DNA of 64,000 nucleotides, taken from positions 1 through 64,000 of the forward strand of contig NZ_QYUP01000148.1 of NCBI RefSeq assembly GCF_003590855.1, written 5' to 3'. A program made the translations under genes and the position numbers. A model generated the notes under the pieces. That model searched no databases. It worked only from the letters and a program-made list of their open reading frames with translations, and was not told the DNA's origin. The stretch comes from Massilia cavernae (GTDB taxonomy: Bacteria > Pseudomonadota > Gammaproteobacteria > Burkholderiales > Burkholderiaceae_D). Position 1 is the first letter of the stretch. Each line of letters opens with the position of its first letter. Shown here in pieces: positions 17,868 through 37,474 of the stretch.

Positions 17868-18674
17868 TCAGCCGCCCCCAGCCAGGCTGCGCGCCAGGAA
17901 ACCGCTCACTGCCGCGATCACGGCCTCGGGATGCTCCTCGTACGGCACATGCCGGCAGTCTTCCAGCACCATCAACTCAGCGTGCGGAACGCGCCGCTGT
18001 ATTTCGTATAACTGATCCAGTGTCCCGTATTGGTCCTGCCTGCCCTGCACCGCCAGCAGCGGGCTCGCGATGCTTTCGATCGCCCCGGCCACGTTCCAGC
18101 CGCTGAACGCGGGCGACAGCCAGCACCTGCTCCAGCCATTGAACACGCCAGCCGGGTCATCGTGCAGCCGCGCGAGATGGGCCGCCATGCGTCCGTCGTC
18201 CCAGGTGACCTGCAGCCGCGCGATGCGCTCGCGCGCCACCTGTTCGACAAACACATGCGGGGCAAGCACCACCACTGGGCCGGCACGCTCCGGGAAGGCC
18301 GCCGCATACAGCAGCGCGATGGTCGCGCCGTCGCTGTGCCCGAAGATAACCGGGCGTTCGCGCGCCGCGTCGATGCCGAGCGCCTGGAACAGTGCCGGCA
18401 GGTTCTCGCGCGCCTCGCGCTCCAGGTAATCCAGCGGCCAGCCTTGCCCGGATCCGGGCCGCGTGTCCGAATGCCCGTAGCCGTAGCGCGAAAACACCAG
18501 GCCGCGGCAACCGGTTGCTTCGCACAAGCTGCGCGGCCAGCCGCCCCACATCGCGGCCGAACCGAGGCCTTCGTGCAGGAACACGATCAGCGGCGCATCT
18601 TTCCGGCCACTGGCGATCCATTCGTATTCAAGCGTGACGGGCTGCCCGTCGATGGCGATCGATGTGCGCTGCAA
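17868..18674 (-). CDS. Alpha/beta hydrolase, last gene of the furan-acid operon (TTG start)
   Basis: 268-residue alpha/beta-fold hydrolase. The nucleophile elbow is GHSDGA, with a later Asp in QGRQDQYG and the catalytic His in CRHVPYEEHPE, so the triad is complete. FLHEGLGS supplies the oxyanion region. The TTG start at 18674 is chosen because AAAGGA lies 7-8 bases upstream; an ATG at 18731 would overlap the preceding gene by 43 bp. It is 14 bp after the ALDH-like gene. In the Hmf pathway the tautomer of 5-hydroxy-2-furoyl-CoA is a lactone, so a lactonase role is a reasonable but untested idea; an esterase acting on a furoate ester is another. Confidence 0.85.
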   Translation of the reverse strand: MQRTSIAIDGQPVTLEYEWIASGRKDAPLIVFLHEGLGSAAMWGGWPRSLCEATGCRGLVFSRYGYGHSDTRPGSGQGWPLDYLEREARENLPALFQALGIDAARERPVIFGHSDGATIALLYAAAFPERAGPVVVLAPHVFVEQVARERIARLQVTWDDGRMAAHLARLHDDPAGVFNGWSRCWLSPAFSGWNVAGAIESIASPLLAVQGRQDQYGTLDQLYEIQRRVPHAELMVLEDCRHVPYEEHPEAVIAAVSGFLARSLAGGG

Positions 18675-18688
18675 AGGCGGTTCCTTTT

Positions 18689-20128
18689 CTATTGGCGCGG
18701 CGTGGCCAGGAAATCGGCCAGGCTGCCGCATCCCTGGCGGCCGCGATGCGCCATGCTATCACCACCGCGCTCCGCGCTGCCCGGCGCCAGCCAGTCGTGC
18801 CGGTTGACCAGCACGCTGTCGTTGCGCAGCGCGCGAGCCAGCCGCTGCACCCGCGCCGGGTCGCCGGTCCATACGCTGACCGAACGCGCCATGCGCATCG
18901 CGTTGGCGCACGCGACCGCCTCGCCGTCTTCCTCGAACCGGCCGATCGAGACGAACGGCCCGTAGATATCCTCCAGCGCGGAGGCGCCAGTGCAATCGCT
19001 CTCCGCCACCAGCGTCGGCGACAGGAAGTAGCCGTCGGCCAGATCGCCGCCGGCGCGGCGGCCGTGCAGCAGCACCTCGTCGCAGCGGGCCAGTGCCTGC
19101 TCGGTGCGCACGCCCACCGCGACCAGCGCCGATGCATCGATCAGCGGTCCCATGCCGCACCCGGCCCGGTCCCCTGCCCCGACGACCACCTGCTCCAGCG
19201 CCCGTTTCAGCGCCGCCCTGGCTTCGCCGAAGCGCGACGCGTGCACCAGGATGCGGCGCGGTGCGCCATTGTGCTGGCCGGCGGCGACCAGCGCCGCTGC
19301 CGCCAGCTGTCCGGCCACTGCCTGCATATCGATGTCCGCAAACACCAGGCTGCACGACTTTCGGGTCAGGTCGAACAGCAGCCGCTTGGCGCTGGGCGCC
19401 GCGGCCTGCGCCATCTTGCGTCCGGTCTCCTGCGAGCCAGTGAAGCACAGCACGTCGACGCCGCGCGAGGCGACCAGCTCGCGCGCCACCTCCTGTCCCG
19501 TCTCCGACACCAGGTTGACCACGCCGGCCGGCAGGCCTTCGACTGCCGCCAGCTCGCCAATGACGGCCGCGGTGACCTGCGCACTTTGCCGCGCCGGCTT
19601 GACCACGGCGCAGCAGCCGGCCGCCAGCGCCGGTGCCAGCGACGCCACGAGCAGCGCCACCGGCGCATGCCAGGGCACCAGGATGGCGACCACGCCCGCC
19701 GCCGGCGCGGCACCGCTGGCCGCTGCGGGCTGCAACAGCTGCCCGGCGTGATGGCGCACGCACGCAATCGCAGTGGCGATCTCGTGGCGCGACTGCGCCA
19801 GCACCTTGCCGTTTTCAAGCGTCAGCAGGTGCGCCAGGTCGCCGCGCTTTTCCAGGCGTTCGGCCCAACGCAGCAGCAGCTCCGCGCGCCTGGCCGGGTC
19901 GTGCGACAGGCCGCCGCGCTCGAACGCAAGCCGCGCCGCATCGGTGGCCTGCCGCGCATCGGCCGCCGCGCCCGCGGCGAAGCCGCCGATCTCGCGGCCG
20001 TTGGCAGGGTTGATGCTGTCGCCCTCGCGCGCGCCGCCGGCAGGCTGCCACTGGCCGCCGACCAGGTTCTGCGCGCGCAAGCGATGCACCTCGGGTTTTA
20101 TCGCTCTTGCTTCCATGGCAGTATCCAT
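18689..20128 (-). CDS. Aldehyde-dehydrogenase-fold protein lacking catalytic residues
   Basis: 479 residues aligning over the full ALDH superfamily length. Cofactor features remain: VVKPA at about 175, FTGSQETG (229-236), EDIYGPF. The three catalytic positions are changed. The Asn of PWN is His (PWHAP, H154), the general-base Glu of ELGGKS is Asp in FDLTRKS (D253), and the nucleophile Cys of GQxC is Asn (GQHNGAP, N287). It is therefore probably not a working aldehyde dehydrogenase; a binding, scaffold or altered catalytic role is possible. The gene overlaps the permease by 31 bp; an internal ATG at 20116 is an alternative start. Reading frame and codon use look intact, so it is not simply decaying. 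Confidence 0.85.
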   Translation of the reverse strand: MDTAMEARAIKPEVHRLRAQNLVGGQWQPAGGAREGDSINPANGREIGGFAAGAAADARQATDAARLAFERGGLSHDPARRAELLLRWAERLEKRGDLAHLLTLENGKVLAQSRHEIATAIACVRHHAGQLLQPAAASGAAPAAGVVAILVPWHAPVALLVASLAPALAAGCCAVVKPARQSAQVTAAVIGELAAVEGLPAGVVNLVSETGQEVARELVASRGVDVLCFTGSQETGRKMAQAAAPSAKRLLFDLTRKSCSLVFADIDMQAVAGQLAAAALVAAGQHNGAPRRILVHASRFGEARAALKRALEQVVVGAGDRAGCGMGPLIDASALVAVGVRTEQALARCDEVLLHGRRAGGDLADGYFLSPTLVAESDCTGASALEDIYGPFVSIGRFEEDGEAVACANAMRMARSVSVWTGDPARVQRLARALRNDSVLVNRHDWLAPGSAERGGDSMAHRGRQGCGSLADFLATPRQ

Positions 20129-20865
20129 CCCTCGATTTCATTCAGGATGAGCGTCAACAGGAAGCCCAGGACGGAAATGACGATCAGGCCGACGTACATG
20201 GTTTCGACCGACAGGATCTGCCACGCGTCCCAGATCATGAAGCCGATGCCGTTCTTGGCGCCGACCATTTCCGCGATCGCGATCAGGATCAGCCCCATGC
20301 CGATGCCAAGCTTGATGCCCGCCATGATCGACGGCAGCGCACCTGGCAGGGCCACGGTGCGGAAGGTCTGCCAGCGGCTGGCGCGGAAGTTCTTGCCGAC
20401 GTCGAGGTAGATCTTGTCGATCTGGAGCACGCCGGTGATGGTGTTGATCAGCACCGGGAAGAACACGCCCAGCGCCACCATCACGATCTTGGACGCCTCG
20501 CCGAGGCCGAAGATGAGCAGGATCAGCGGCAGGATCGCGCTTTTCGGCACCGGGTAGGTAGCCGAGATCAGCGGATCGATGGCGGCGCGGATCGGCCGGT
20601 ACAGGCCCATCGCGATGCCGAGCAAAAGCGCCGGGATGCCGCCGAGGAGCGAGCCCCACAGCAGGCGCTGCAGGCTGGCCGACAGATGACCCCACAGTTC
20701 GCCCGATCCGGTCAGCTCGACGGCCTGCTTGACGATGCTGGTCGGGGCCGGGAAGAAGCGCGTGTCGACCACGCCGGCGCGGGCGCTGATCTCCCACAGC
20801 AGCAGGAGCGCCAGCGGCGAAGCGATGCCCAGCAGGCGGTCGCGGACCTTGTCGTTCATTTTCAT
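20098..20865 (-). CDS. NitT/TauT-type ABC transporter permease
   Basis: 255 residues with about six membrane segments and the permease EAA loop around DVGKNFRASRWQTFRTVALPGALPSIMAG, as in SsuC/TauC. The start at 20865 has GAGGAGG 8 bases upstream and overlaps the ATPase stop (ATGA). With the next two genes it forms a complete importer of the sulfonate/nitrate/taurine class, many members of which carry aromatic carboxylates or sulfonates. Its place in the furan operon suggests uptake of a furan acid or related compound (inference). Confidence 0.9.
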   Translation of the reverse strand: MKMNDKVRDRLLGIASPLALLLLWEISARAGVVDTRFFPAPTSIVKQAVELTGSGELWGHLSASLQRLLWGSLLGGIPALLLGIAMGLYRPIRAAIDPLISATYPVPKSAILPLILLIFGLGEASKIVMVALGVFFPVLINTITGVLQIDKIYLDVGKNFRASRWQTFRTVALPGALPSIMAGIKLGIGMGLILIAIAEMVGAKNGIGFMIWDAWQILSVETMYVGLIVISVLGFLLTLILNEIEGWILPWKQER

Positions 20866-21683
20866 GTGCGTGCCTCCTCTTGCGCCTTGGCGCGCTGCAC
20901 TTCCTCGCGCAGGTGTCCCCATATGTTGTAGACCATCTCGCCGTAGGCCGGCTGCGAACGCAGCTCCAGCACGTTGCGCGGGCGCGCGAACGGCACGTCG
21001 ATGATCGCTTTCACGTTACCCGGATGGGCCGACATCACCATGATCTTGTCCCCCAGGGTCACCGCCTCGTCGACGCTGTGGGTGATGAACACCACGGTCT
21101 TCTTGTCGGCTTCCCAGATGCGCAGTACTTCTTCCTGCAGCAGGGTCTTGTTCTGCTCGTCGAGCGCCGAAAACGGCTCGTCCATCAGCAGGATTTCCGG
21201 GTCGTTGGCGAAGGCGCGCGCGATCGACACGCGCTGCTTCATCCCGCCCGACAGCTGGTGCGGGTAATGCCTGGCGAATTTGGTCAGGCCGGTCTTGTCG
21301 AGGTAGTGGCCGACCGTCTCTTTCACTTCCGCTTCCGGCAGGCCGCGCAGCTTCAGGCCGTAGGCGGCGTTGTCCCACACGGTCATCCACGGAAAGATCG
21401 AGTCGCCCTGGAACACCATCGAGTTGCTGGGACGGCCCGGGCGGTCTGCCCGCACTTCGACCGTGCCGCTGCTTGGCTTCTCGAGTTCGGCCAGGATGCG
21501 CAGCAGCGTGGTCTTGCCGCAGCCGCTGGGGCCGACGATGACGAAGAAGGTGCCCGGCGCGATGTCGAGCGAGATGTTGTCGATCGCGGTGAAGGTGCCG
21601 CCCCTGGCGGCGAACTGCTTGGTCAGGTTGGCGATGCGGATCTTGGGCGCCGCCAGGCCTGGTATGTTCTCAGCCAGTTTCAT
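20862..21683 (-). CDS. NitT/TauT-type ABC transporter ATP-binding protein
   Basis: 273 residues. Walker A GPSGCGKTT, signature LSGGMKQR, Walker B LLMDEPFSALDEQ and the switch His in VFITHSVDEA are all present, matching SsuB/TauB. The start at 21683 follows GGGAGCGACC. Thirteen bases separate it from the binding-protein gene. Confidence 0.93.
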   Translation of the reverse strand: MKLAENIPGLAAPKIRIANLTKQFAARGGTFTAIDNISLDIAPGTFFVIVGPSGCGKTTLLRILAELEKPSSGTVEVRADRPGRPSNSMVFQGDSIFPWMTVWDNAAYGLKLRGLPEAEVKETVGHYLDKTGLTKFARHYPHQLSGGMKQRVSIARAFANDPEILLMDEPFSALDEQNKTLLQEEVLRIWEADKKTVVFITHSVDEAVTLGDKIMVMSAHPGNVKAIIDVPFARPRNVLELRSQPAYGEMVYNIWGHLREEVQRAKAQEEART

Positions 21684-21696
21684 GGTCGCTCCCATC

Positions 21697-22782
21697 TTAT
21701 TGCTTCGGCTGGTAGGGGCCCAGCGCCTTGACCGCGGCATTCACGAACGAGGTGTCGACCACCTGTTCCATCTTCACGCTGCCATCCACGTACTTCTGCT
21801 CCTTGTAGAACTGATAGTCGCGCGCCAGGCTTGCCTCGTTGATCTTGCCGTCCGGGTGGATGCCATTCGGCGTCATCTTCTTGTACAGCGCCGGGTCCTT
21901 GACGTTGCTGTCCGCGGCCAGGATGGCGATGACTTCGGCCGCGTTCGGGCCGGCGAACTTGCCGTCCTTGAGCGCGTCGTTGTAGAAGCGTGCGCCCTTC
22001 AGGTAGGCGATCATGAACTTCTGCGCGAGCTGCGGCTGCTTCTTAATGAAATCGCCGCCGTACAGCAGCACCGCGATCTGCTGGTTCGGATACGGATCGG
22101 TGTTCGTCAGGCGCACCGCCGCGCCACGTTCGATGGCCTGGGTGGCCGACGGCTCGGTGGTGACGCTGGCGTCGATCGCGCCGTTCATCAGCGCCGCCAC
22201 ATGCTGCGGGTAGCCGATGTATTCGTGCTCGGTGTCCTTGTACGACAGGCCGCCGCTCTTGAGCGCTTCGTTCAGCTTCGAGCCGGGCGAGCCTCCCTTG
22301 GCAGCTTCCGCCACCTTCAGGCCCTTGAGGTCCTTGTAGCTCTTGACCTTGCCGCTGTCGACCAGCGCCTTGCGCACCAGGATCGGCATGTAGTCGTACT
22401 GCGGCGGGGTGGAGCCCTTGTCGGCCACCACCTTGATGTTGATGTCGCGCGCGGCGGCGTTGTACAGGCCGGCCGACATGGCGCCGGCCGCCACGTCCAG
22501 CTGGCCGGTTCCCAGCGGCGCAATCATCTTCGGTCCCGCGTCGAACGGCACGAACACCACCTTGATTCCCTGCTCGGTGAAATAGCCCTTCTTGTTGGCG
22601 ATGAAGAACGGGGCATCGCTGACCACATTGTTGACGCCGATGCGGACCTCGGCCGGTGCGGCGGCGGCGGCAGGCATGCCGCATGCCCATGCCGCAGCCA
22701 GCACGGCAGCGCCGGCGGCGAGCCGGCGGCGCTGTTGGCCGCTCGCGACTGCCGCGGCGGTGGTACGTTTTGCGTTCTTCAT
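21697..22782 (-). CDS. NitT/TauT-type ABC transporter substrate-binding protein
   Basis: 361 residues with a long cleaved export signal: basic QQRRRLAAGA (possible twin-arginine type) followed by an Ala-rich hydrophobic stretch ending AAAAAPAEV. The mature part starts VRIGVNNVVSDAPFFIANKKGYF, the SsuA/NMT1 signature. The start at 22782 is preferred because GGAG lies 9 bases upstream. It is the periplasmic receptor of the second importer in this operon; ligand unknown. Confidence 0.92.
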   Translation of the reverse strand: MKNAKRTTAAAVASGQQRRRLAAGAAVLAAAWACGMPAAAAAPAEVRIGVNNVVSDAPFFIANKKGYFTEQGIKVVFVPFDAGPKMIAPLGTGQLDVAAGAMSAGLYNAAARDINIKVVADKGSTPPQYDYMPILVRKALVDSGKVKSYKDLKGLKVAEAAKGGSPGSKLNEALKSGGLSYKDTEHEYIGYPQHVAALMNGAIDASVTTEPSATQAIERGAAVRLTNTDPYPNQQIAVLLYGGDFIKKQPQLAQKFMIAYLKGARFYNDALKDGKFAGPNAAEVIAILAADSNVKDPALYKKMTPNGIHPDGKINEASLARDYQFYKEQKYVDGSVKMEQVVDTSFVNAAVKALGPYQPKQ

Positions 22783-22834
22783 TTTGTCTGTCTCCAAGCT
22801 GTTATGGGGATGGTGCTGCGTCCTGCGGCTTTGC

Positions 22835-23641
22835 TCAACTTCCTTTGAAATCAGGTTTGCGCTTCTGGTGGAAGGCTTCGACGCCCTCGCGGAAGTCGTC
22901 GGACGAACGCAGGCGGCTGTAGCAGTGGCCTTCCAGTTCGATCGCGATGGCCAGGGTCGAGTCCTCGGTATCGTTCAACAGCTTCTTGGCGGTGCGTTGC
23001 GCGATCGGTGAGAACGCGCGCAGTTCCTCGACCAGCGCATCGGTGGCTTTTTCCAGGTCGCCGTCCGGGACGCACATGGTGGCGATGCCCCAGTCGTATG
23101 CCTGCTGGCCCGGGACCCGACGCGAACGCATCACCACGTCCTTGGTGCGCGTGATGCCGACCATTTTCTGCAGGCGCGCGGAGCCGCCCGAACCCGGAAT
23201 CTGGCCCAGTTTCTGTTCCGGCAGCGCGTACTGCGAGGTCTCGGATACGATGCGGAAGTCGCACGCCAGCGAGATCTCGAAGCCGACGCCGAAGCAGAAG
23301 CCGCGGTTGGCTGCGATCACCGGCTTGCTGCAGCGTGCAGGCGCGGCGATGTTCCATGCCAGCTTGGAAACGTGTTCCGGCGTCGCGTCGAGGAAGCCGC
23401 GGATATCGCCGCCGCTGGAGAAATGTTCGCCAACCGCGCGCAGCACGATCACGCGCACCGCGGGGTTCTCGTCGAGCGATTCGAACACCAGGCGCAGCTG
23501 GTCGCGCTGGGCCATCGAAATGATGTTGAACGGAGGACGTTCGAGCACGATGTCGGCGCGCTCGCGTTCGGCGTCGATGATCACCGAAAAGCCGTCGAGC
23601 TTTTCGAGCAGGGTGTGCGCTGGATGGGAAAGATGGGACAT
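22835..23641 (-). CDS. hmfE: Crotonase-fold hydrolase, HmfE-like (2-oxoglutaryl-CoA hydrolase candidate)
   Basis: 268 residues of the enoyl-CoA hydratase/isomerase superfamily. The oxyanion-hole strand is FSSGGDI, and acidic residues sit at the usual active-site places (GVGFEISLACD and ALPEQKLGQIPGSGG). In the known furfural pathway HmfE is a crotonase-family protein that hydrolyses 2-oxoglutaroyl-CoA to 2-oxoglutarate and CoA. The assignment rests mainly on the company of hmfABCD and hmfFG homologues here; a simple enoyl-CoA hydratase is the alternative. It lies between livF and the second importer, with gaps of 28 and 52 bp. Confidence 0.78.
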   Translation of the reverse strand: MSHLSHPAHTLLEKLDGFSVIIDAERERADIVLERPPFNIISMAQRDQLRLVFESLDENPAVRVIVLRAVGEHFSSGGDIRGFLDATPEHVSKLAWNIAAPARCSKPVIAANRGFCFGVGFEISLACDFRIVSETSQYALPEQKLGQIPGSGGSARLQKMVGITRTKDVVMRSRRVPGQQAYDWGIATMCVPDGDLEKATDALVEELRAFSPIAQRTAKKLLNDTEDSTLAIAIELEGHCYSRLRSSDDFREGVEAFHQKRKPDFKGS

Positions 23642-28298: not shown

Positions 28299-29828
28299 TC
28301 ACTGCTGTGCTTCTGCTTCGTACTCATTGGCGACCAGCTTGCGGCGCAACAGCTTGCCGACCGGGGAGCGCGGCACTTCGACCACGAAGACATAGGAGCG
28401 CGGCCGCTTGAAGTTGGCCAGGCCCGAAGTGCGGCAATGCGTGTCGAGTTCCTCGCTGGTGACCGCCGCGCGGCGCTTGACGAAGGCCGTGACGCTCTGG
28501 CCCCAGCGCGCGTCGGCCAGCCCGACCACCGCCACTTCGTCGACTGCCGGGTGGAGCGACAGCAGGCTCTCGATTTCGACCGGCGAGATGTTTTCGCCGC
28601 CGCTGATGATCATGTCGTCGGTGCGCCCAGACACGAACAGGTCGCCGTCGCGGTCCAGGTAGCCGGTGTCGCCGGTGAAGTACCAGCCGCCGCGCAGCGC
28701 CTTGGCGTTGGCGTCGGGCCGGTTCCAGTAGCCCTCGAAGGCTTCGTCGCCGCACAGGTCGACGATGATCTCGCCCTCCTCGTAGCGTTCGGCCGCCATG
28801 TCCGGGTTGCCGCTGTCGAGCCGTACCACGCGCAGGCGCTGGTTGATGCCGGCCCGCCCGGCGCTGCCGGGCTTCTTCACGGCGTCCTGGTCGATGCTGA
28901 AGGTGTACACCTCGGACGAGCCGTAGTGGTTGACGAACAGCTCGGGATGGAACAGCGCGTCGAGCTTCTTCAGCAGCGCCTCGTTCATCGACGCGCCCGC
29001 GAAGCCCAGCTTGCGCACCGAGGACAGGTCGGTGGCGGCGCAGTTCGGGTGGGCGATCACGTCGTGGTAAAGGGTCGGCACCAGGTACAGGTTGGTGATG
29101 CGCTCTGCTTCGATCGCCGCCAGCACCGCCACCGGGTCGAACTTCGGCACGCACACGAAGCAGCCGTCGACCAGCGCCATCGCCAGCAGCGAACGCACGC
29201 CCATGGTGTGATACAGCGGCATCACGCCGAGCGTTCGCTCGTGGCGGCCGTACTGGTTCTGGGCGACGTGCGCCAGCGCGGCCGCCCGTTCGTGGCGGTG
29301 GCGGCGCGGCACGCCTTTCGGCTTGCCGGTGGTGCCGGAGGTGTACAGCATCAGCGACCAGTCATCGGCGCCGGCGTTCAGCAGCGGGACTGGCGGCTGG
29401 GCCGCCAGCAGCTGTTCGAACTGCAGCGTGGCGCCCGCTGCGGCGCCGACCGCGATGCGCGGCAGGCGTTGCGCCACCACGGAGTCACGCACAGCGTCGG
29501 CCGACACGTCCTGGAACACGATGGCGCGCGCATCGGCGTCGCCGGCGCAGTAGTCGATCTCGTCCAGCTTGGCGCGCCAGTTGAGCGGCGTGACGATGAT
29601 GCCGGCGAACTGGCAGGCCCAGTGCAGGGTAGCCATCTCCCAGCGGTTCTGCAGCAGCGCGACCAGGTGGTCGCCGCGCTGCAGGCCGATCCCTTGCAGG
29701 CCTCCGGCCACCGCGGCCACGCGGTCGAACCACTGGCCGTAGGTCAGGCGCAGGCCGCCGTCCACCAGCGCCAGCTGGTCGGGACTGCGTTCTACCGATG
29801 CGAGGAAACTGCGGCCCAGATCAAGCAT
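28299..29828 (-). CDS. hmfD: AMP-forming acyl-CoA synthetase, HmfD-like (2-furoate-CoA ligase candidate)
   Basis: 509 residues of the ANL superfamily. The P-loop is LMLYTSGTTGKPKGVPRRH, the core motif YGSSEVYTF, the hinge FTGDTGYLDRDGDLFVSGRTDDMI, and the catalytic Lys is in SPVGKLLRRKL. The start at 29828 is preferred (GGGAG 8 bases upstream) over ATGs at 29843 and 29870. The start overlaps the 2Fe-2S subunit stop by 8 bp, so translation is coupled to the hydroxylase that would act on its product. Activation of 2-furoate to 2-furoyl-CoA is inferred from the gene set; another aromatic acid is possible. Confidence 0.82.
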   Translation of the reverse strand: MLDLGRSFLASVERSPDQLALVDGGLRLTYGQWFDRVAAVAGGLQGIGLQRGDHLVALLQNRWEMATLHWACQFAGIIVTPLNWRAKLDEIDYCAGDADARAIVFQDVSADAVRDSVVAQRLPRIAVGAAAGATLQFEQLLAAQPPVPLLNAGADDWSLMLYTSGTTGKPKGVPRRHRHERAAALAHVAQNQYGRHERTLGVMPLYHTMGVRSLLAMALVDGCFVCVPKFDPVAVLAAIEAERITNLYLVPTLYHDVIAHPNCAATDLSSVRKLGFAGASMNEALLKKLDALFHPELFVNHYGSSEVYTFSIDQDAVKKPGSAGRAGINQRLRVVRLDSGNPDMAAERYEEGEIIVDLCGDEAFEGYWNRPDANAKALRGGWYFTGDTGYLDRDGDLFVSGRTDDMIISGGENISPVEIESLLSLHPAVDEVAVVGLADARWGQSVTAFVKRRAAVTSEELDTHCRTSGLANFKRPRSYVFVVEVPRSPVGKLLRRKLVANEYEAEAQQ

Positions 29829-30345
29829 GTTCTTTACTCCCATGAATGGCGGCCTGGCGTTGCGCTGCAACGTCGAGCACGGCGTTGACGATATTTGTAT
29901 AACCGGTACAGCGGCACAGGTGGCCGGACAGCATGTCGCGCACCTGTTCTTCGCTCGGCGCGGGGACGCGCTCGAGGAAATGGCTGCATGACATCAGGAT
30001 GCCGGCGGTGCAGAAGCCGCACTGCAGCGCGTGGTGGCGCTTGAAGGCGGCCTGCAGGTCGCCCAGTTCGGCGCCGGCGCCCTTATTAAGACCCTCGACG
30101 GTGTCGACACAGCGCCCGTCGGCCTGCACCGCCAGCTGCATGCACGAGCGCTGGGCCACGCCGTCGACGCGCACGGTGCAGGCGCCGCAGATGCCGTGCT
30201 CGCAGCCGACGTGGGTACCGGTCGCACCCAGCTTGTGGCGCAGGAAGTCCGACAGCAGCATGCGCGCTTCGGCCGGCGCGGTGCGCGCCACGCCGTTCAG
30301 CGTGATGGTCACCGGGTATTCCATGTTCTTTTCGTAGTGTTTCAT
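29821..30345 (-). CDS. hmfC: Molybdenum hydroxylase 2Fe-2S subunit, HmfC-like
   Basis: 174 residues with two [2Fe-2S] domains. The N-terminal plant-ferredoxin-type cluster is GCEHGICGACTVR with a later CMQ, and the helical C-terminal cluster uses QCGFCTAGILMS and LCRCTGY. It passes electrons from the molybdenum centre to FAD. The start at 30345 overlaps the FAD-subunit stop (ATGA). Confidence 0.88.
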   Translation of the reverse strand: MKHYEKNMEYPVTITLNGVARTAPAEARMLLSDFLRHKLGATGTHVGCEHGICGACTVRVDGVAQRSCMQLAVQADGRCVDTVEGLNKGAGAELGDLQAAFKRHHALQCGFCTAGILMSCSHFLERVPAPSEEQVRDMLSGHLCRCTGYTNIVNAVLDVAAQRQAAIHGSKEHA

Positions 30346-31160
30346 ATGCTTGCCTTCACTATCAGTTGACGGCCCAGCTGGCGCACCAGGTGGCGCCGAT
30401 ACTCGGCGCTGGCGTGTGCGTCGCCCTGGGCTTCGAGTTCCCATGCGAAGTCGTTGAGTGCGGCATCCAGGTCGTCGCCGTCGATGCGCGCCCAGCGCCT
30501 GCGGATCGGGCGGTCGGCCACGCCGCCGACGGTCAGTTCGATGGCGCCGCTGGTGACCACAGCGGCCAGCGCCACGATGGCGAAGTCGCCGTGCCGCATC
30601 GAGACTTCGCGGAAGGCGTAGCGCGCGCCCTGCCGGCGCAGCGGGAAGCGCACTTCCTCGACGATTTCTCCGGGGCGCACCGCTGTCATCAGCATCCCCT
30701 GGAAGAAGTCGCCGGCCTTCAACACGCGCCGGCCCGACTGCGAGCGCAGCACCACTTCGCCCTGCAGCGCGGTCAGGCACAGCGGCAACTCGGCGCTCGG
30801 GTCGGCATGGGCGACCGAGCCGCACACGGTGCCGCGGTTGCGGATCTGGAAGTGCGATATCCACGGGAAGGCCATGCCGAGGAGCGGCACTTCCGAGCCC
30901 AGGGTGGCGCGCGTTTCGACGCTGGCCTGGGTGGCTGCGGCACCCACCGCCAAGTTGCCGTTCTCGACGCGCACGTAGTCCAGGTCCTGGCAGCGCGAGA
31001 TATCGACCAGCATCGCCGGCTGCGCCAGGCGGATGTTCAGCATCGCCATCAGCGACTGGCCGCCGGCCAGGATCTTGGCGTCCTCGCCGTGGCGGGCAAG
31101 CAGGCCCACCGTCTCTTGCGCGCTGTCGGCGCGAATGTAATCGAATGCGGCCGGCTTCAT
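30342..31160 (-). CDS. hmfB: Molybdenum hydroxylase FAD-binding subunit, HmfB-like
   Basis: 272 residues of the CO-dehydrogenase medium-subunit family. FAD-binding motifs ILAGGQSLMAMLNIR (about 32) and RNRGTVCGSVAHADPSAELPL (about 105) are present, followed by the CO_deh_flav C-terminal domain. The start at 31160 has GGGAG about 8 bases upstream and overlaps the large-subunit stop by 4 bp. Confidence 0.88.
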   Translation of the reverse strand: MKPAAFDYIRADSAQETVGLLARHGEDAKILAGGQSLMAMLNIRLAQPAMLVDISRCQDLDYVRVENGNLAVGAAATQASVETRATLGSEVPLLGMAFPWISHFQIRNRGTVCGSVAHADPSAELPLCLTALQGEVVLRSQSGRRVLKAGDFFQGMLMTAVRPGEIVEEVRFPLRRQGARYAFREVSMRHGDFAIVALAAVVTSGAIELTVGGVADRPIRRRWARIDGDDLDAALNDFAWELEAQGDAHASAEYRRHLVRQLGRQLIVKASI

Positions 31161-34100
31161 TTGGATACTCCCAGTGCGTGCAGGATGCGCTGCCACAGTG
31201 AGCGCTTCTGCAAGGCTGCGCCGCCCCCGGCCTGGCGCCCCAGTTGTTCGAACAGCTGGCGCAGCACGATCTTGGCGGCGCCCTCCAGCATGCGGCCGCC
31301 CACGGCCGCGACCTTGCCGCTGACGGCGGCGCTGTAGTCGTAGGTCAGCAAGGTCCCCGGACCCGCCGGTTCGAGGCGGATGCGGCCAGCGCCTTCGGCC
31401 GAGCCGAGCGAGCTGACGCCCTTGCCGCCCAGCGCGAGGCCGTGCGGCGGATCGAGGTCGGACAGGCGAATCTCGGCGGCGTAGCGCGCCTTGACCAGGC
31501 CGATGCCGATGGTGACGTCGGCGCGGTAGTGATTCTCGCCGGCCTTGTCCAGCGCGTGGCAGCCGGGGATGACCTTGACCAGCGCGTCCGGGTCGAGCAG
31601 CACCGCGTACACCTGCTCCGGCGTGGCCGGCAGTTCGACCGAGCCTGACATCGACAGCGCGTGGCCGCCTTGCGGCGCCTTGACCGGCGCGGCGCCGCGC
31701 GGCTTGCTCGGCGCCGGGTCGTCCACGCCGAGCAGCGCATGGATCTTCGACGGCGTCAGCGGCAAGCGCAGGTCGGCCACGCCCAGCGCATCGGCCACCG
31801 CATTGGCGATGCACACAGGAGTGCTCATGTTGTTGCCTTCGCCAAGGCCCTTGGCGCCCAGCGGCGTGAACGGCGACAGCGTTTCCATGTGGACGATCAC
31901 CGGCTCCGGCACCTCGCAGGCGGTCGGCACCAGGTAATCGGCAAAGGTGCCGGACTTGAAGCTGCCGTCGCTGCCGTAGTCGAATTCCTCCATCAGCGCC
32001 GCGCCCAGCCCCTGCGCGAAGGCGCCGCGGATCTGGCCGTCGGCCAGCGCCGGGTTGAGGATGCGGCCGGCGTCGTGCGAGGTGACGTAGCGGTCGATGC
32101 GTACCTGCCCGGTGATCTTGTCGACTTCGACCGCGCAGATGTCGAACACGAAACCGTAGGCGGCCGAGCTGTTGATCACGTCGTTTTCGTCCGGCGCCTG
32201 CAGCTGCGCCGGCGTCCAGAACACGGTTTCGCGCACGCCCGATGCCATCCCTTCCGGCAGGCTCGCCGGCGACCAGTGGGCGCCGCCCGCCACGCGGTGG
32301 AACGGGAGCTTGCCGGCCGGATTGGCGCGCGCGTACACCTTGCGGCCTTCGAACACGATGTCGGAGGCCGGGACATCGAGGATGGACGCGGCGATCAGGG
32401 CCAGCTTGTCGCGCACCCTGACCGCAGCCAGGTGCACGGTGCCCGCCACCGCGCCGGCGAAGCGGCTCGAGTAGTTGCCCGCGGCGATGGACCAGCCGTC
32501 CTTTTGCGTATCGAGTTCGGCGTTGACCAGCACGTCCGACGGCTCCAGCCCCAGCACGTCGGCCACCACCTGCGCCACCACCGTGCGGTGGCCCTGCCCC
32601 TGCGGCACGGAATCGATCATCACGCTGACGCTGCCGAGCGCATCGACGGCAACGGTGGCGCTGGTGTTGGCGCCGTTCTTCGGGCCCGCCTTGGCGCGTT
32701 CTGCCGGCGTGAGCGCGGTGGTGATGTAGCCCATATTGGAAATCGACGGCTCGACCACGGCGGCGTAGCCGATGCCATACAGGCGGCCTTCGGCGCGGGC
32801 CTGGTCGCGGCGCGCCCTCAGTTCGGCCAGTCCGCCGCGTTCGGCCGCCATCGCCATCGACAGCTGGTAGTTGCCGGAGTCGTAGAGCGAGCCGGCCGGC
32901 GCGCGGTAGGGAAAGGCATCCGGCGTGATCATGTTGCGTGCGATGACGTCGAACGGATCGAGGTCCAGCTCGACCGCGATACGCTGCATCAGGCGCTCCA
33001 GCGCGAAGTACACCTGCGGGCCGCCGAAGCCGCGCACCAGGCCGGACGGGGTTTTGTTGGTCAGGACCACCTGGTTGTGAACCTGGAGGTGGCGCAACTT
33101 GTAGGCGCCGGTCAGCATGCCGTGCATGCGGTAGAAGGTGGCCGGCTCCGGCGCGCGCAGGTAGGCGCCGCAGTCGTCGATCTGGTGGTAGCGCAATGCG
33201 ATGACGTCGCCTTCAGGCGTCACAGCGGCTTCGATGGTGGTGACGCGGTTGGTCGACGAGACCGAAGCTTGCAGGTGTTCGAGGCGGTCCTCGATCCACT
33301 TGACCGGCGCGCCGGCCTTGCGCGAAGCGAGGCACAGCAGCACGATGTAGGTCGACACGGCCTGCTTGGTGCCGAAGCTGCCGCCGGAATCGCGCGGCGC
33401 GCGCAGGCGCAGCCGGGTGCCGGAAACCTTGAGCGAGCGCGCCATCACAGGATGCAGCGCGAACGGTCCCTGGAAGTTCGACAGGACGTCGTAGCCTTCG
33501 TCACCGGCAAGGTATTCGGCGACGACGGCGAAGCATTCGATCGGAGTGCAGGAATTGCGCGGGTAGTGGACCTTGAGCTTGACCGTGCGCCCGGCGGCGG
33601 CGAAGGCGGCTTCCGGCTCGCCGTACGAGAAATGGCGGTCGTTGACCAGGTTGGCGCCCACGGCCGGATGCAGCACCGGCGCGCCCTCCTCCAGCGCGGC
33701 TTCGGGGTCGACCACCGCCTTCAGCTGGCGGTACTCGACCTTGACCAGTTCCAGCGCGTCTTCAGCCAGGTAGCGGCTTTCGGCCATCACCACCGCGACC
33801 GGCTCGCCGACGTAGCGGGCGCGTTCGATTGCGATCGACCAGTGCTCCATCGGCTGCTTGACGCCGACCGCGAATGGGGTCGACCAGGCGGCGACGTCGG
33901 CGCCGGTCAGCACCGCGCGCACGCCGGGCAGCGCCAGCGCCGCGCTGCTGTCGATCGCGAGGATCTCGGCGTGGCCGTGCGGGGAGCGGAGGATGGCTGC
34001 GTGCAGCGTGCCTGGCTTGACGCCGATGTCGTCGGCGTAGCTGCCGCGCCCTGTCAGCAGGGCGGCGTCTTCGAAGCGGGGCAGCGCCTTGCCGACATGG

Positions 34101-34165
34101 CCGCTGGGCGCGGCGTCGGCCGCGGCGGCAAAACCCTCGGCAGGCACTGGGGAAATCTGGTTCAC
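31157..34165 (-). CDS. hmfA: Molybdenum hydroxylase large subunit fused to a CoxG/SRPBCC domain, HmfA-like
   Basis: 1002 residues with a GTG start preceded by AAGGG. Residues about 25-785 form the Moco-binding subunit of the xanthine-dehydrogenase family, with GGSFGTKQA, RGFGGPQ (about 376) and the catalytic Glu in KGLGEGN (about 770). After a Pro/Ala linker, residues about 838-985 form a CoxG-type SRPBCC domain (SGSVELPATPEQVYAVLLDPDALVKVIPGCHAL). In the Hmf pathway the enzyme hydroxylates 2-furoyl-CoA at C5 using water. CoxG is usually a separate protein, so the fusion is notable. It is the first gene of the 15-gene run, 119 bp downstream of the AraC gene. Confidence 0.85.
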   Translation of the reverse strand: MNQISPVPAEGFAAAADAAPSGHVGKALPRFEDAALLTGRGSYADDIGVKPGTLHAAILRSPHGHAEILAIDSSAALALPGVRAVLTGADVAAWSTPFAVGVKQPMEHWSIAIERARYVGEPVAVVMAESRYLAEDALELVKVEYRQLKAVVDPEAALEEGAPVLHPAVGANLVNDRHFSYGEPEAAFAAAGRTVKLKVHYPRNSCTPIECFAVVAEYLAGDEGYDVLSNFQGPFALHPVMARSLKVSGTRLRLRAPRDSGGSFGTKQAVSTYIVLLCLASRKAGAPVKWIEDRLEHLQASVSSTNRVTTIEAAVTPEGDVIALRYHQIDDCGAYLRAPEPATFYRMHGMLTGAYKLRHLQVHNQVVLTNKTPSGLVRGFGGPQVYFALERLMQRIAVELDLDPFDVIARNMITPDAFPYRAPAGSLYDSGNYQLSMAMAAERGGLAELRARRDQARAEGRLYGIGYAAVVEPSISNMGYITTALTPAERAKAGPKNGANTSATVAVDALGSVSVMIDSVPQGQGHRTVVAQVVADVLGLEPSDVLVNAELDTQKDGWSIAAGNYSSRFAGAVAGTVHLAAVRVRDKLALIAASILDVPASDIVFEGRKVYARANPAGKLPFHRVAGGAHWSPASLPEGMASGVRETVFWTPAQLQAPDENDVINSSAAYGFVFDICAVEVDKITGQVRIDRYVTSHDAGRILNPALADGQIRGAFAQGLGAALMEEFDYGSDGSFKSGTFADYLVPTACEVPEPVIVHMETLSPFTPLGAKGLGEGNNMSTPVCIANAVADALGVADLRLPLTPSKIHALLGVDDPAPSKPRGAAPVKAPQGGHALSMSGSVELPATPEQVYAVLLDPDALVKVIPGCHALDKAGENHYRADVTIGIGLVKARYAAEIRLSDLDPPHGLALGGKGVSSLGSAEGAGRIRLEPAGPGTLLTYDYSAAVSGKVAAVGGRMLEGAAKIVLRQLFEQLGRQAGGGAALQKRSLWQRILHALGVSK

Positions 34166-34284: not shown

Positions 34285-35139
34285 TCAATGGTGGTCGTAA
34301 ACATCGACCACCTTGCGGTATTGGCTCGGCACCGCGCCCAGGTGCTGCTGGAAGAATCGGGTGAAGTGGCTCTGCGCGCTGAACCCCAGGCTATCGGACA
34401 AACTGACCAGCGGGACCCGGCTTTGCGTCAGGCCCTCGATCGCCTTTTCCATGCGCAGCACGTTGACGTACAGGGTAGGCGTCAGGCTGGTGTCCTGCTG
34501 GAACAGCTTGAAGAAGTGGGCGCGCGACAGGCAGGCTTCGGACGCCATCCTGTCGATATCGAGTTCGGCGCCGACGTTGCTGCGCATGTAGCTGATGGCG
34601 CGGCGGATGCGCGGATCGGGAATGCGCGGCAGTTCGGCCTTGCGCATGTCATTGAAGTTGCGCCATTCCGAAAACGCGTCGACCACCGCGATCATCAGGT
34701 TCGACAGCTGTATCTCGAGCTGCTGCGCGCTCAGCTGGTCGCCATACAGCATCTGCATCGCCAGCTGGTTCGACAGGTTGCGGATCGGCTTGGAGATCTC
34801 GACGCAGGGTTGCGGGAAGAAGCCCGGCTGGCCGCTGGAGATCAGGGCCTTCTCGATCTCGCCCAGCCACAGCGGCTCGATGTACAGCGCCAGGATGATG
34901 GTGCCCGGCGCGTCCGGATCGTGGTGGGTGTAGGCGTGCGGCTCCCACGAATTGATCAGCACCGCGGTCTGGTCGGTCAGCGGATAGGACTTGTCGCGCA
35001 CGGTGAACGACGTGTCTTCGCCGCTGACCTTGATCAGCACGTGGCACTGCGAATGGCCGTGGGTGACCAGCGGACGGTCCATATCCAGCAGGCAGACCCG
35101 CCCGAACTTACCTTGCAAAACACGTACAGCAGCTGACAT
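34285..35139 (-). CDS. AraC-family transcriptional regulator of the furan-acid locus
   Basis: 284 residues: a cupin-like N-terminal effector domain (about 15-110, with VTHGHSQCHVLIKVSG) and two C-terminal AraC helix-turn-helix motifs (about 180-280, ending SLGFSAQSHFTRFFQQHLGAVPSQYR). The start at 35139 follows GGAGACAGGC. It lies between the catabolic operon (same strand, 119 bp downstream) and the divergent ubiD-type gene, so it may control both. Known hmf clusters also carry local regulators. The effector could be the furan acid or its CoA ester. Confidence 0.88.
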   Translation of the reverse strand: MSAAVRVLQGKFGRVCLLDMDRPLVTHGHSQCHVLIKVSGEDTSFTVRDKSYPLTDQTAVLINSWEPHAYTHHDPDAPGTIILALYIEPLWLGEIEKALISSGQPGFFPQPCVEISKPIRNLSNQLAMQMLYGDQLSAQQLEIQLSNLMIAVVDAFSEWRNFNDMRKAELPRIPDPRIRRAISYMRSNVGAELDIDRMASEACLSRAHFFKLFQQDTSLTPTLYVNVLRMEKAIEGLTQSRVPLVSLSDSLGFSAQSHFTRFFQQHLGAVPSQYRKVVDVYDHH

Positions 35140-35338
35140 GCCTGTCTCCTTGCGGGGCGTTTCGCAGCGCCGGATCGGGATCCTGGCGGTAGCACGCTCT
35201 AATGGTTGTCCATGGTGGCTTGCTCTTGCGCGGCGCAATTCATGCATGCTGCATGACGCCGGGCCGGCAAATTGCGCTAATCATGCACGAAAAACGCGCA
35301 CCGCGCACGTCGACCCGCAATTTTGCGATCATTAATTA

Positions 35339-35353
35339 TGATATTAAATATCA
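35339..35353. promoter_or_regulatory. Inverted repeat TGATATT-A-AATATCA upstream of hmfF
   Basis: A perfect 7+1+7 palindrome in the AT-rich 278-bp divergent region between the AraC gene and hmfF. It sits 11 bp upstream of the predicted -35 box, a normal place for an activator site. Either the AraC or the LysR regulator could bind; which one cannot be told from sequence. Confidence 0.55.
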
Positions 35354-35364
35354 AAATTTATTAT

Positions 35365-35394
35365 TTGAAGTTATATATCACCACTCCCTATACT
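35365..35394 (+). promoter_or_regulatory. Predicted sigma-70 promoter of hmfFG
   Basis: TTGAAG (35365-35370), an 18-base spacer and TATACT (35389-35394) lie 24 bp before the hmfF GTG start. Confidence 0.6.
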
Positions 35395-35417
35395 GGATTC
35401 ACAACGAGGAGACCGAA

Positions 35418-36875
35418 GTGAATTCAAACAATTTCGAGCAAGGGCCGGCCAGCGACCTGCGTACATGGCTGGCCCACCTGGGCGCCAGCGGGCGGGTCGC
35501 CGTCGTGCGCGAGGGCGTGCGGCTGAAGCACCAACTGGCGGCGATCGCCAAGCGGCTGGACGGCAAGCAGGCCGCCTTTTTCCCGCATCCGGACGGGTAC
35601 GCGATTCCGGTGGTATCGGGCTTCATGTCGCGCCGCGCCTGGATCGCGGAAGCAATGGGCGTGACCGAGACGGAGCTGCTTGCGGCCTACCGCAATGCCT
35701 CCGACAACCCGCTGCCCTGGCAGGAAGTGGCCGCCAACGATGCGCCCTGCCAGCAGGTGGTCAAGCGCGATGTCGACCTGCTCGCCGCACTGCCGATCCC
35801 GACCCACAGCGAGCACGATAACGGTCCCTACATCACGGCGGGCCTGGTGATCGCGCGCAATCCCGTCACCGGTATCCAGAACGTCTCGATCAACCGCATC
35901 CAGGTGCATGCGAGGGACCGCATGGCGATCCTGATGCTGCCGCGCCACCTGCATGCTTTCTACCAGGCCGCGGAAGCGCGCGGCGCGGCGCTCGACGTGG
36001 CGGTGGTGATCGGCGCCGACCCGCTTACCCTGCTCGCCTCGCAGGCGATCTCGCCGATCGACCACGACGAACTGGAAATCGCCGGCGCCCTGCATGGCGC
36101 GCCGCTACCGGTGGTCAAATGCGTAAGCAGCGATGTGCGCGTGCCGGCCCGCGCCGAAATCGTCATCGAGGGCAAGCTGCTGCCGAAGGTGCGCGAACCC
36201 GAAGGCCCATTCGGCGAGTTCCCAAAGTACTACAGCGCGCGCGAAGACCGCGAGGTGATCCAGGTAAGCGCCATCACGCACCGCGAATCGCCGCTGTTCC
36301 ACACCATCGTGCCGGCCGAAATGGAGCACCTGCTGCTGGGCGCGATCCCGCGCGAAGCGACCTTGCTGGCTCTGCTGCAGCGCAGCCACCCCGGCGTCAG
36401 CGACGTCCACCTGTCGATCGGCGGCGTCGGGCGCTACCACCTGCACGTCAGGTTCAGGAAGAAGCGCGAAGGCGAAGCCAAGAACGTCATCCTGTGCGCG
36501 TTCGGCGCCCACTATGACCTCAAGCAGGTGACCGTGGTCGACGACGACGTCGACGTGCACGATCCGCTGCAGGTCGAATGGGCGGTGGCCACGCGCTTCC
36601 AGGCCGACCGCGACCTGGTCGTCATCGCGGGCGCGCAAGGCTCGGTGCTCGACCCCTCCACCACGGTCGGCATTGAGATGCCCGGCGGCGCACCGCCGCC
36701 GCCCCACATGCAGGGCATCAGCGCCAAGATGGGCATCGACGCGACCCGGCCGGTGGTCTACCACGAGCACGTATTCACCAAGGTGAAGGTGCCGGGCGAA
36801 GACACGGTCGACCTGGCGACCGAAGTCAGCGCCGGCGCGACGGTCGACTGGTCCTGCATGCAGGTATTGCGATGA
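35418..36875 (+). CDS. hmfF: UbiD-family prFMN-dependent decarboxylase, HmfF-like (2,5-furandicarboxylate decarboxylase candidate)
   Basis: 485 residues with a GTG start 8 bases after GAGGAG. The UbiD fold is clear: the prFMN/metal region around NVSINRIQVH (active-site Arg) and the EPEGPFGEFPKY segment with the conserved acidic residues of the Glu-Arg-Glu set. In the Hmf pathway HmfF removes one carboxylate from 2,5-furandicarboxylate to give 2-furoate, needing prenylated FMN from a UbiX partner. The UbiX-type gene follows with an ATGA overlap. Assignment to furandicarboxylate rests on the neighbouring hmfABCDE-like operon; other hydroxyaryl acids are possible. Confidence 0.85.
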   Translation: MNSNNFEQGPASDLRTWLAHLGASGRVAVVREGVRLKHQLAAIAKRLDGKQAAFFPHPDGYAIPVVSGFMSRRAWIAEAMGVTETELLAAYRNASDNPLPWQEVAANDAPCQQVVKRDVDLLAALPIPTHSEHDNGPYITAGLVIARNPVTGIQNVSINRIQVHARDRMAILMLPRHLHAFYQAAEARGAALDVAVVIGADPLTLLASQAISPIDHDELEIAGALHGAPLPVVKCVSSDVRVPARAEIVIEGKLLPKVREPEGPFGEFPKYYSAREDREVIQVSAITHRESPLFHTIVPAEMEHLLLGAIPREATLLALLQRSHPGVSDVHLSIGGVGRYHLHVRFRKKREGEAKNVILCAFGAHYDLKQVTVVDDDVDVHDPLQVEWAVATRFQADRDLVVIAGAQGSVLDPSTTVGIEMPGGAPPPPHMQGISAKMGIDATRPVVYHEHVFTKVKVPGEDTVDLATEVSAGATVDWSCMQVLR

Positions 36876-37474
36876 ACGCGCGTCCGCGCCTCGTGGTGGC
36901 CATCACGGGCGCCAGCGGCGTGATCTACGGCGTGCGCCTGCTGGAGCAGCTGCGTGCCAGCGGCGCGGTGGAATCGCACCTGGTCATGTCGCCGTCGGGC
37001 GCGCTGACCGCGTCGCAGGAACTCGACATGAAGCGCAGCGATATCGAAGGCCTGGCCGATGTGGTGCACAACGCCAAGGACGTCGGCGCCACCATCGCCA
37101 GCGGCTCGTTCCGTTCGCTGGGCATGGTCATCGCGCCCTGCTCGATGAAGACCCTGGCCAGCATCGCGCACGGGCTGGCCGACAACCTGGTCAGCCGCGC
37201 AGCCGACGTCATGCTCAAGGAAAGGCGCCGGCTGGTGCTGATGGCACGCGAGACGCCGCTCAACCTGGCGCACCTGCGCAATATGACCAGCGTGACTGAA
37301 ATGGGCGGCATCGTCCTGCCGCCGGTGCCGGCCTTCTACACCCGGCCGGAAACGGTGGACGACATCGTCAACCACACCGTCGGCCGCGTGCTCGACCTGT
37401 TCGATATCGAACACGAGGGACTGGTCAAGCGCTGGGACGGCATCACGAAGCGGGGACTGGAAACTGTGTCTTGA
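36872..37474 (+). CDS. hmfG: UbiX-family flavin prenyltransferase, HmfG-like
   Basis: 200-residue flavoprotein with the N-terminal VVAITGASGVIYGVRLLEQLR nucleotide motif shared by UbiX/Pad1, the SGSFRSLGMVIAPCSMKTL core and the LMARETPLNLAHLRNM segment. UbiX enzymes join dimethylallyl phosphate to reduced FMN to make prFMN for UbiD partners. It is translationally coupled to hmfF. Its 3' end overlaps that of the convergent LysR gene by 32 bp. Confidence 0.92.
   Translation: MNARPRLVVAITGASGVIYGVRLLEQLRASGAVESHLVMSPSGALTASQELDMKRSDIEGLADVVHNAKDVGATIASGSFRSLGMVIAPCSMKTLASIAHGLADNLVSRAADVMLKERRRLVLMARETPLNLAHLRNMTSVTEMGGIVLPPVPAFYTRPETVDDIVNHTVGRVLDLFDIEHEGLVKRWDGITKRGLETVS

Follow-up and report, generated by a model that had tools for sequence, protein, structure and literature searches.

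The catalysis of aldehyde dehydrogenases (ALDHs) relies on an oxyanion Asn, a general-base Glu and a nucleophile Cys, and their dimers and tetramers are built by an oligomerisation hairpin and a C-terminal strand and tail. In bacteria, the ALDH-like domain of PutA is non-catalytic and serves assembly and channelling, and Luo et al. in 2016 reportedly described an ALDH-superfamily domain of unknown function in PutA. As a kind, ALDH pseudoenzymes are already known from human ALDH16A1, which lacks the whole triad and for which there is evidence of an interaction with another protein (PMC10650815). Among enzymes of comparable genomic setting, the FFCA dehydrogenase PsfA belongs to the hmf clusters of Pseudomonas umsongensis GO16, in which its deletion showed it to be required for growth on HMF, HMFCA and FFCA, being needed for growth on 5-formyl-2-furoate and dispensable for growth on FDCA or furoate (PMC12064950).

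The protein described here shares something with each of these systems and departs from each of them. It resembles the PutA domain in being bacterial and ALDH-like, but that non-catalytic domain is part of a larger enzyme, whereas ours is free-standing and has shortened oligomerisation elements. It has an ALDH fold without the catalytic triad, as ALDH16A1 has; that loss is a separate, human one, whereas the loss here is seen in three bacterial species and within a catabolic operon, and comes with a clear intact sister clade and shortened assembly elements. Like PsfA, ALDHs that are orthologues or close matches of its intact relatives stand beside hmfABCDE/hmfF-type genes; unlike PsfA, it has no catalytic triad. 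No published report of this bacterial case was found among open-licence PubMed Central papers.

The gene lies in the window, by which we mean the whole stretch of 64,000 nucleotides of Massilia cavernae DNA that was analysed, among the following features:

17868..18731, minus strand, alpha/beta hydrolase (Pfam Abhydrolase_1, 1.9e-18), overlapping the 3' end of the ALDH gene
18689..20128, minus strand, ALDH homologue with altered triad (479 amino acids, Pfam Aldedh match)
20098..20922, minus strand, TauC/SsuC-type ABC permease, overlapping the start of the ALDH gene
20862..21740, minus strand, ABC ATPase, TauB-type
21697..22797, minus strand, ABC substrate-binding protein, SsuA family
22835..23641, minus strand, enoyl-CoA hydratase/isomerase-family (ECH-type) protein, HmfE-like (2-oxoglutaroyl-CoA hydrolase) by analogy with the hmf genes listed in PMC12064950
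23670..28265, minus strand, branched-chain-type ABC importer of five genes (substrate-binding protein by profile, the other four from their translations; orthologues seen)
28299..29870, minus strand, acyl-CoA ligase (Pfam AMP-binding, 5.8e-69), furoyl-CoA synthetase HmfD by analogy
29821..34165, minus strand, three-subunit molybdenum hydroxylase, furoyl-CoA dehydrogenase HmfABC by analogy
34285..35247, minus strand, AraC-family regulator
35202..36875, plus strand, UbiD-family decarboxylase, HmfF-like (best PDB match 6h6v, 1.7e-123, from residue 85 on)
36872..37474, plus strand, UbiX-family flavin prenyltransferase

We take 6h6v to be the structure of HmfF, and the true start of the UbiD-family gene probably lies further downstream. 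The order in the operon is molybdenum hydroxylase, ligase, branched-chain-type importer, ECH-type protein, TauABC-type importer, ALDH and hydrolase, with UbiD and UbiX divergent. The gene types of an hmf (furoate/2,5-furandicarboxylate) cluster, namely molybdenum hydroxylase, ligase, ECH-type HmfE and UbiD/UbiX, are all present, and by this analogy the operon is of the hmf (furoate/FDCA) type; its genes are of the same kinds as the hmf genes listed for P. umsongensis GO16 (PMC12064950). Table 2 of that paper lists 'hyd' as a putative 5-hydroxy-2-furoyl-CoA hydrolase of hmf clusters, and the hydrolase at 17868..18731 is a possible counterpart of it, by type only. This hydrolase, 75% identical to its M. 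agrisoli and 69% to its M. soli counterpart, evolves about as fast as the altered ALDH and has an open frame in all three species. The large subunit of the molybdenum hydroxylase (31157-34165) carries a CoxG domain fused at its C-terminus (residues 841-978).

The ALDH gene occupies exactly positions 18689-20128 of the minus strand as an intact frame of 479 codons without internal stops, as the original prediction had it. Both its sequence and its predicted fold place the protein in the ALDH superfamily: Pfam Aldedh matches residues 30-466 at 2e-90 (304 bits, against a cut-off of 23), the AlphaFold2 model has the ALDH fold (mean pLDDT 82.7, pTM 0.85), and the 50 matches listed by Foldseek in the PDB with this model are ALDH-superfamily entries with TM scores (query) of 0.78-0.87. 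The best 25 of 40 NCBIfam matches are all under their curated cut-offs. The alignment to E. coli SSADH (3jz4) is ungapped at the motifs, pairing PWH with PWN, FDLTRKS with LELGGNA and GQHN with GQTC, so that the protein has H154 in the place of the oxyanion Asn, D253 in that of the general-base Glu and N287 in that of the nucleophile Cys. The replacement of all three residues had been foreseen, down to their numbering, and the residues read from the homologue columns agree with it. An error of sequencing or assembly was rejected as its source, three separate genome records being in agreement. A catalytic Cys displaced within the active site, which would have told against the prediction, is likewise rejected, since the motif alignments are ungapped and no replacement Cys appeared at the nucleophile position in the sequence alignments, which have Asn or Ser there; other Cys residues are present elsewhere in the protein.

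A scan of genome contigs yielded 40 homologous loci, and scans of 17 genomes of the genus and 392 of the family (the latter a sample) yielded matches at 1e-90 or better in 3 of the 17 and 19 of the 392. Massilia agrisoli and Massilia soli have the same gene in the same operon, and the triad is replaced there as well (His, Asp and Ser in M. agrisoli; Gln, Asp and Ser in M. soli), position 287 thus being Asn, Ser and Ser across the three species and position 154 His, His and Gln. Asn, Glu and Cys are all kept in the 49 homologue rows outside these species, of which 42 belong to near relatives (at 43-54% identity) and 7 lie further off (at 36-38%), one row (L052) being partial (excluded: L054, another ALDH at 25% identity, four identical proteins, L011-L014, the last being 36-38% identical, from another ALDH group of the genus and read as GQFC). 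In the tree the three altered proteins group as one clade with support 100/100. The stem leading to it measures 1.37 changes per column, and the clade is itself nested, at 100/93, with same-family enzymes whose triad is intact. With every other row intact and a single clade nested among intact-triad enzymes, the triad loss is, on this sequence comparison, derived and common to one three-species clade. Two rows were retained in the tree and in the count of 49 but excluded from the codon model and the column counts, as the extracted stretch of one (L063) ran through stops before reaching its open frame and that of the other (L039) contained one stop.

The genome of the window has 38 Pfam ALDH matches, some of them fragments, of which 30 were read; leaving aside the query and two rows that apparently landed on a neighbouring ALDH gene, all 27 others have the nucleophile Cys, while two of the 27 lack the general-base Glu and one partial row is unreadable at that column. 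A second, intact orthologue in this genome was rejected, the next best ALDH being only 36% identical. On another contig of the same genome (C147, 13039-14222) there is an ALDH gene that appears to be broken into two pieces, one of which contains a TGA and a TAG.

Seven regions around intact-triad relatives were compared for gene order. In three Massilia genomes (G311, G240 and G266) the intact-triad ALDH comes right after molybdenum hydroxylase, ligase, UbiD, UbiX and ECH genes; in G048, G056 and G175 UbiD and UbiX are close to it; and in G062 hmf-type genes are absent within about 20 kb of it. An annotated plasmid of Burkholderia aenigmatica has the same kinds of genes, together with a LysR gene and a similar ALDH. 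Tree, synteny and this similar annotated cluster agree in relating the altered protein to the ALDHs of hmf clusters, and its intact orthologues would resemble PsfA, a kinship drawn from operon position. Among the 17 genomes of the genus, the large subunit of the molybdenum hydroxylase occurs in three, the same three that hold the altered ALDH. M. soli keeps the altered ALDH with no close UbiD orthologue in its genome (best 36%) and, at the locus itself, no TauABC genes beside it; dependence of the gene on UbiD was rejected for the first reason and, as far as this locus goes, dependence on the TauABC importer for the second. Beside the AraC gene of M. soli (L073, 5699-6061) there is only a match to UbiX residues 10-132, UbiD being absent there, and this species appears from its sequence to have dropped FDCA decarboxylation. 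In G056 a TauABC-type importer 78-92% identical to that of the window lies between UbiX and the intact-triad ALDH (L086, 10219-16665); because it stands directly beside an intact-triad gene, importer and ALDH may have adjoined before the triad was lost.

Pairwise codon likelihood among the three species yielded dN/dS values of 0.102-0.140 for the altered gene (2dlnL of 174-241 against a ratio of 1). In the same pairwise comparisons most operon neighbours had values of 0.015-0.082, the exceptions being the hydrolase in one pair (0.162) and the comparisons with the UbiX remnant of M. soli (0.120-0.147); two M. agrisoli matches, those to AraC and to the hydrolase, were left out because of an internal stop, which for the hydrolase was its own end. 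Orthologues with an intact triad gave 0.042-0.045 in the three closest Massilia pairs and 0.040-0.091 over six pairs. In a branch model of 11 sequences and 441 codons the background value was 0.080 and that of the clade 0.117; fixing the clade at 1 worsened the fit by 2dlnL = 354, and giving it the background value did so by 7.6 (354 and 7.1, respectively, under an alternative topology). The stem branch, with dN/dS of 0.18-0.22 over 4.0-4.9 model units, is synonymously saturated and was given no weight. When neutral evolution was crudely simulated with 0.45 substitutions per site, 1998 of 2000 runs acquired a stop, against frames that are open in all three species. Because its dN/dS exceeds that of the intact pairs and neutrality is rejected, the gene is somewhat relaxed yet far from neutral, and a neutral pseudogene is rejected both by the likelihood difference of 354 and by the simulations. 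Catalytic residues have gone while selection keeps the gene, and the earlier proposal of a maintained pseudoenzyme is supported to the extent that the sequences point to a loss common to the three species followed by purifying selection.

The constraint is unevenly distributed along the protein. We compared segments between three clade pairs and six intact-triad pairs, each estimate resting on three clade sequences and 30-120 codons. Residues 121-150 and 381-479, the strictest segments in the intact pairs, had dN/dS of 0.32-0.43 and 0.105-0.169 in the clade against 0-0.04 and 0.008-0.029 in the intact pairs, and residues 1-120 had 0.18-0.31 against 0.06-0.25. The ranges overlapped for residues 151-270 (0.036-0.060 against 0.030-0.059) and 271-380 (0.035-0.101 against 0.018-0.112). 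Because dS estimated by segment varied widely in the clade (0.5 to 3.4), the comparison was repeated with one whole-gene dS, which gave 0.20-0.38 in the clade against 0-0.03 in the intact pairs for 121-150, 0.16-0.21 against 0.013-0.039 for 381-479, 0.066-0.085 against 0.023-0.059 for 151-270, 0.059-0.117 against 0.036-0.138 for 271-380, and 0.066-0.088 against 0.037-0.092 for 151-380 combined. The core of residues 151-380, which is the second half of the nucleotide-binding domain plus the catalytic domain, is about as constrained as in the intact relatives, slightly relaxed in 151-270. Constraint has shifted: 121-150 and 381-479, with the hairpin and the C-terminal tail, are freed several-fold.

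The same elements are reduced in length. The alignment shows the oligomerisation hairpin (around residues 131-142) to be 6-12 residues shorter in the clade and the C-terminal tail about 7 residues shorter. Strands 121-126, 129-137 and 468-474 in the model of an intact orthologue, predicted at modest confidence (block means of 59-79 in the hairpin), have no counterpart in the model of the window protein; both are monomer models built from 30-row alignments, and the 442-456 loop of the control is as poor as the 447-467 loop of the window protein. The hairpin and C-terminal strand of catalytic ALDHs are thus missing from the predicted structure, and the protein is probably non-oligomeric. Because the oligomerisation elements are lost, alignment and models argue against a plain subunit of an ALDH tetramer.

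Persistence of the cofactor motifs, which the original prediction had also claimed, held in part. The Ser of GSxxxG (Ser232), presumably the contact to the cofactor phosphate, is kept in two of the three species and is Leu in M. soli. EDIYGPF is not fully intact: at its second acidic position, which we take to be the Glu of the cofactor ribose, the window has Asp387 and the other two species have Glu, and Tyr389 replaces the Phe throughout the clade. Among the residues that we assume to bind the cofactor (K177, FTG, Ser232, E387 and F389), K177 and the FTG strand are kept in all three species; on the nicotinamide side most residues have changed. Together with the Leu that M. soli has in the place of Ser232, this means that binding of NAD(P) may be gone. 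In 40 intact-triad orthologues 175 columns are near-invariant; at least one of the three species departs from them at 70 columns and all three do so at 51, with the same new residue at 26; D253, T255, H286, P290 and Y389 are among the new residues identical throughout the clade. Within the clade, the lost near-invariant columns are identical less often than the others (37% against 60%).

We tentatively favour, at not quite an even chance, a non-oligomeric pseudoenzyme derived from a PsfA-type enzyme, whose core still binds a ligand (a nucleotide or a CoA ester) or a partner. The gene would descend from the operon's own PsfA-type ALDH, a furan-aldehyde oxidiser in hmf clusters. Sequence, tree and models show that in the ancestor of the three Massilia species the protein lost all three triad residues (oxyanion Asn, general-base Glu, nucleophile Cys) as well as parts of the hairpin and the C-terminal end; on this reading, catalytic residues and assembly elements went once the gene was no longer required for oxidising aldehydes. 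Selection has since held residues 151-380 about as tightly as in the intact relatives, with slight relaxation in 151-270. The product may no longer oxidise aldehydes, and its core may bind a ligand in the old cofactor and substrate cleft, in all likelihood the ADP portion either of NAD(P) or of a thioester of the furoyl-CoA pathway, in a binding, delivering or regulating role in the lower furoate pathway with the hydrolase of the overlapping gene as likely partner. A binding function is favoured because the core is constrained; that a nucleotide or CoA ester is bound, perhaps with the hydrolase, is our best guess from core conservation and gene position.

Slow decay is unlikely. Catalysis would have become dispensable with the loss of the upper pathway, the one that oxidises aldehydes, leaving the open frame as a remnant with fading constraint, as the very long stem, the 51 columns changed in all three species, the lower identity of lost columns within the clade and a whole-gene dN/dS above those of most neighbours and of the six intact-triad pairs might lead one to expect; however, a dN/dS of 0.12 with neutrality rejected, a core held about as tightly as that of intact relatives and open frames in all three species, where simulated neutral genes nearly always gained a stop, speak against fading. 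A wider proposal, that in one small Massilia lineage an ALDH was rebuilt within its own operon into a protein that does not oligomerise and that either handles CoA esters or is a non-redox catalyst, with a new fixed Asp-His pair where the active site used to be, we regard as doubtful. Its strictly catalytic form is improbable; here the pocket would serve non-redox catalysis, such as hydrolysis or tautomerisation of the lactone derived from furoyl-CoA, with D253 and H286 taking over from the Glu-Cys machinery. Such chemistry is conceivable because these two residues are fixed in all three species; the pocket segments are also about as constrained as in intact-triad relatives, and the excerpted text of PMC6678421 assigns no gene to the lactone step of furoate breakdown. 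Yet the variation at positions 154 and 287 within the clade speaks against a single precise catalytic site, the loop 284-287 is of low confidence in the AlphaFold2 model, PMC12064950 lists the putative ring-cleaving hydrolase 'hyd', and an alpha/beta hydrolase adjoins the gene here.

ALDHs usually oligomerise. Together with the many other ALDH genes of the genome, this might suggest a regulatory or scaffold subunit that forms a hetero-oligomer with an active ALDH encoded elsewhere; the shortening of the very elements that serve ALDH assembly, and an identity of only 36% to the best other ALDH of the genome, make this quite improbable. That the protein is still a working ALDH by way of a displaced Cys or of unusual residues, as its intact fold and its other Cys residues would allow, is hardly credible, given that the ungapped motifs put Asn or Ser at the nucleophile position and that Glu and Asn are gone too.

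Many pseudoenzymes come to notice only long after their origin. In this case an intact sister clade, the loss itself and a shift of selection away from the assembly elements are all readable in a defined catabolic operon of soil bacteria, and the role of a dead enzyme that has been kept is therefore directly testable. There may be a bearing on the ring- or lactone-opening step of the pathway, which has no assigned gene in the excerpted text of PMC6678421 and only a putative one in that of PMC12064950. The near-intact constraint on the core after the loss of the triad suggests, as far as sequences can tell, a new job for the enzyme.
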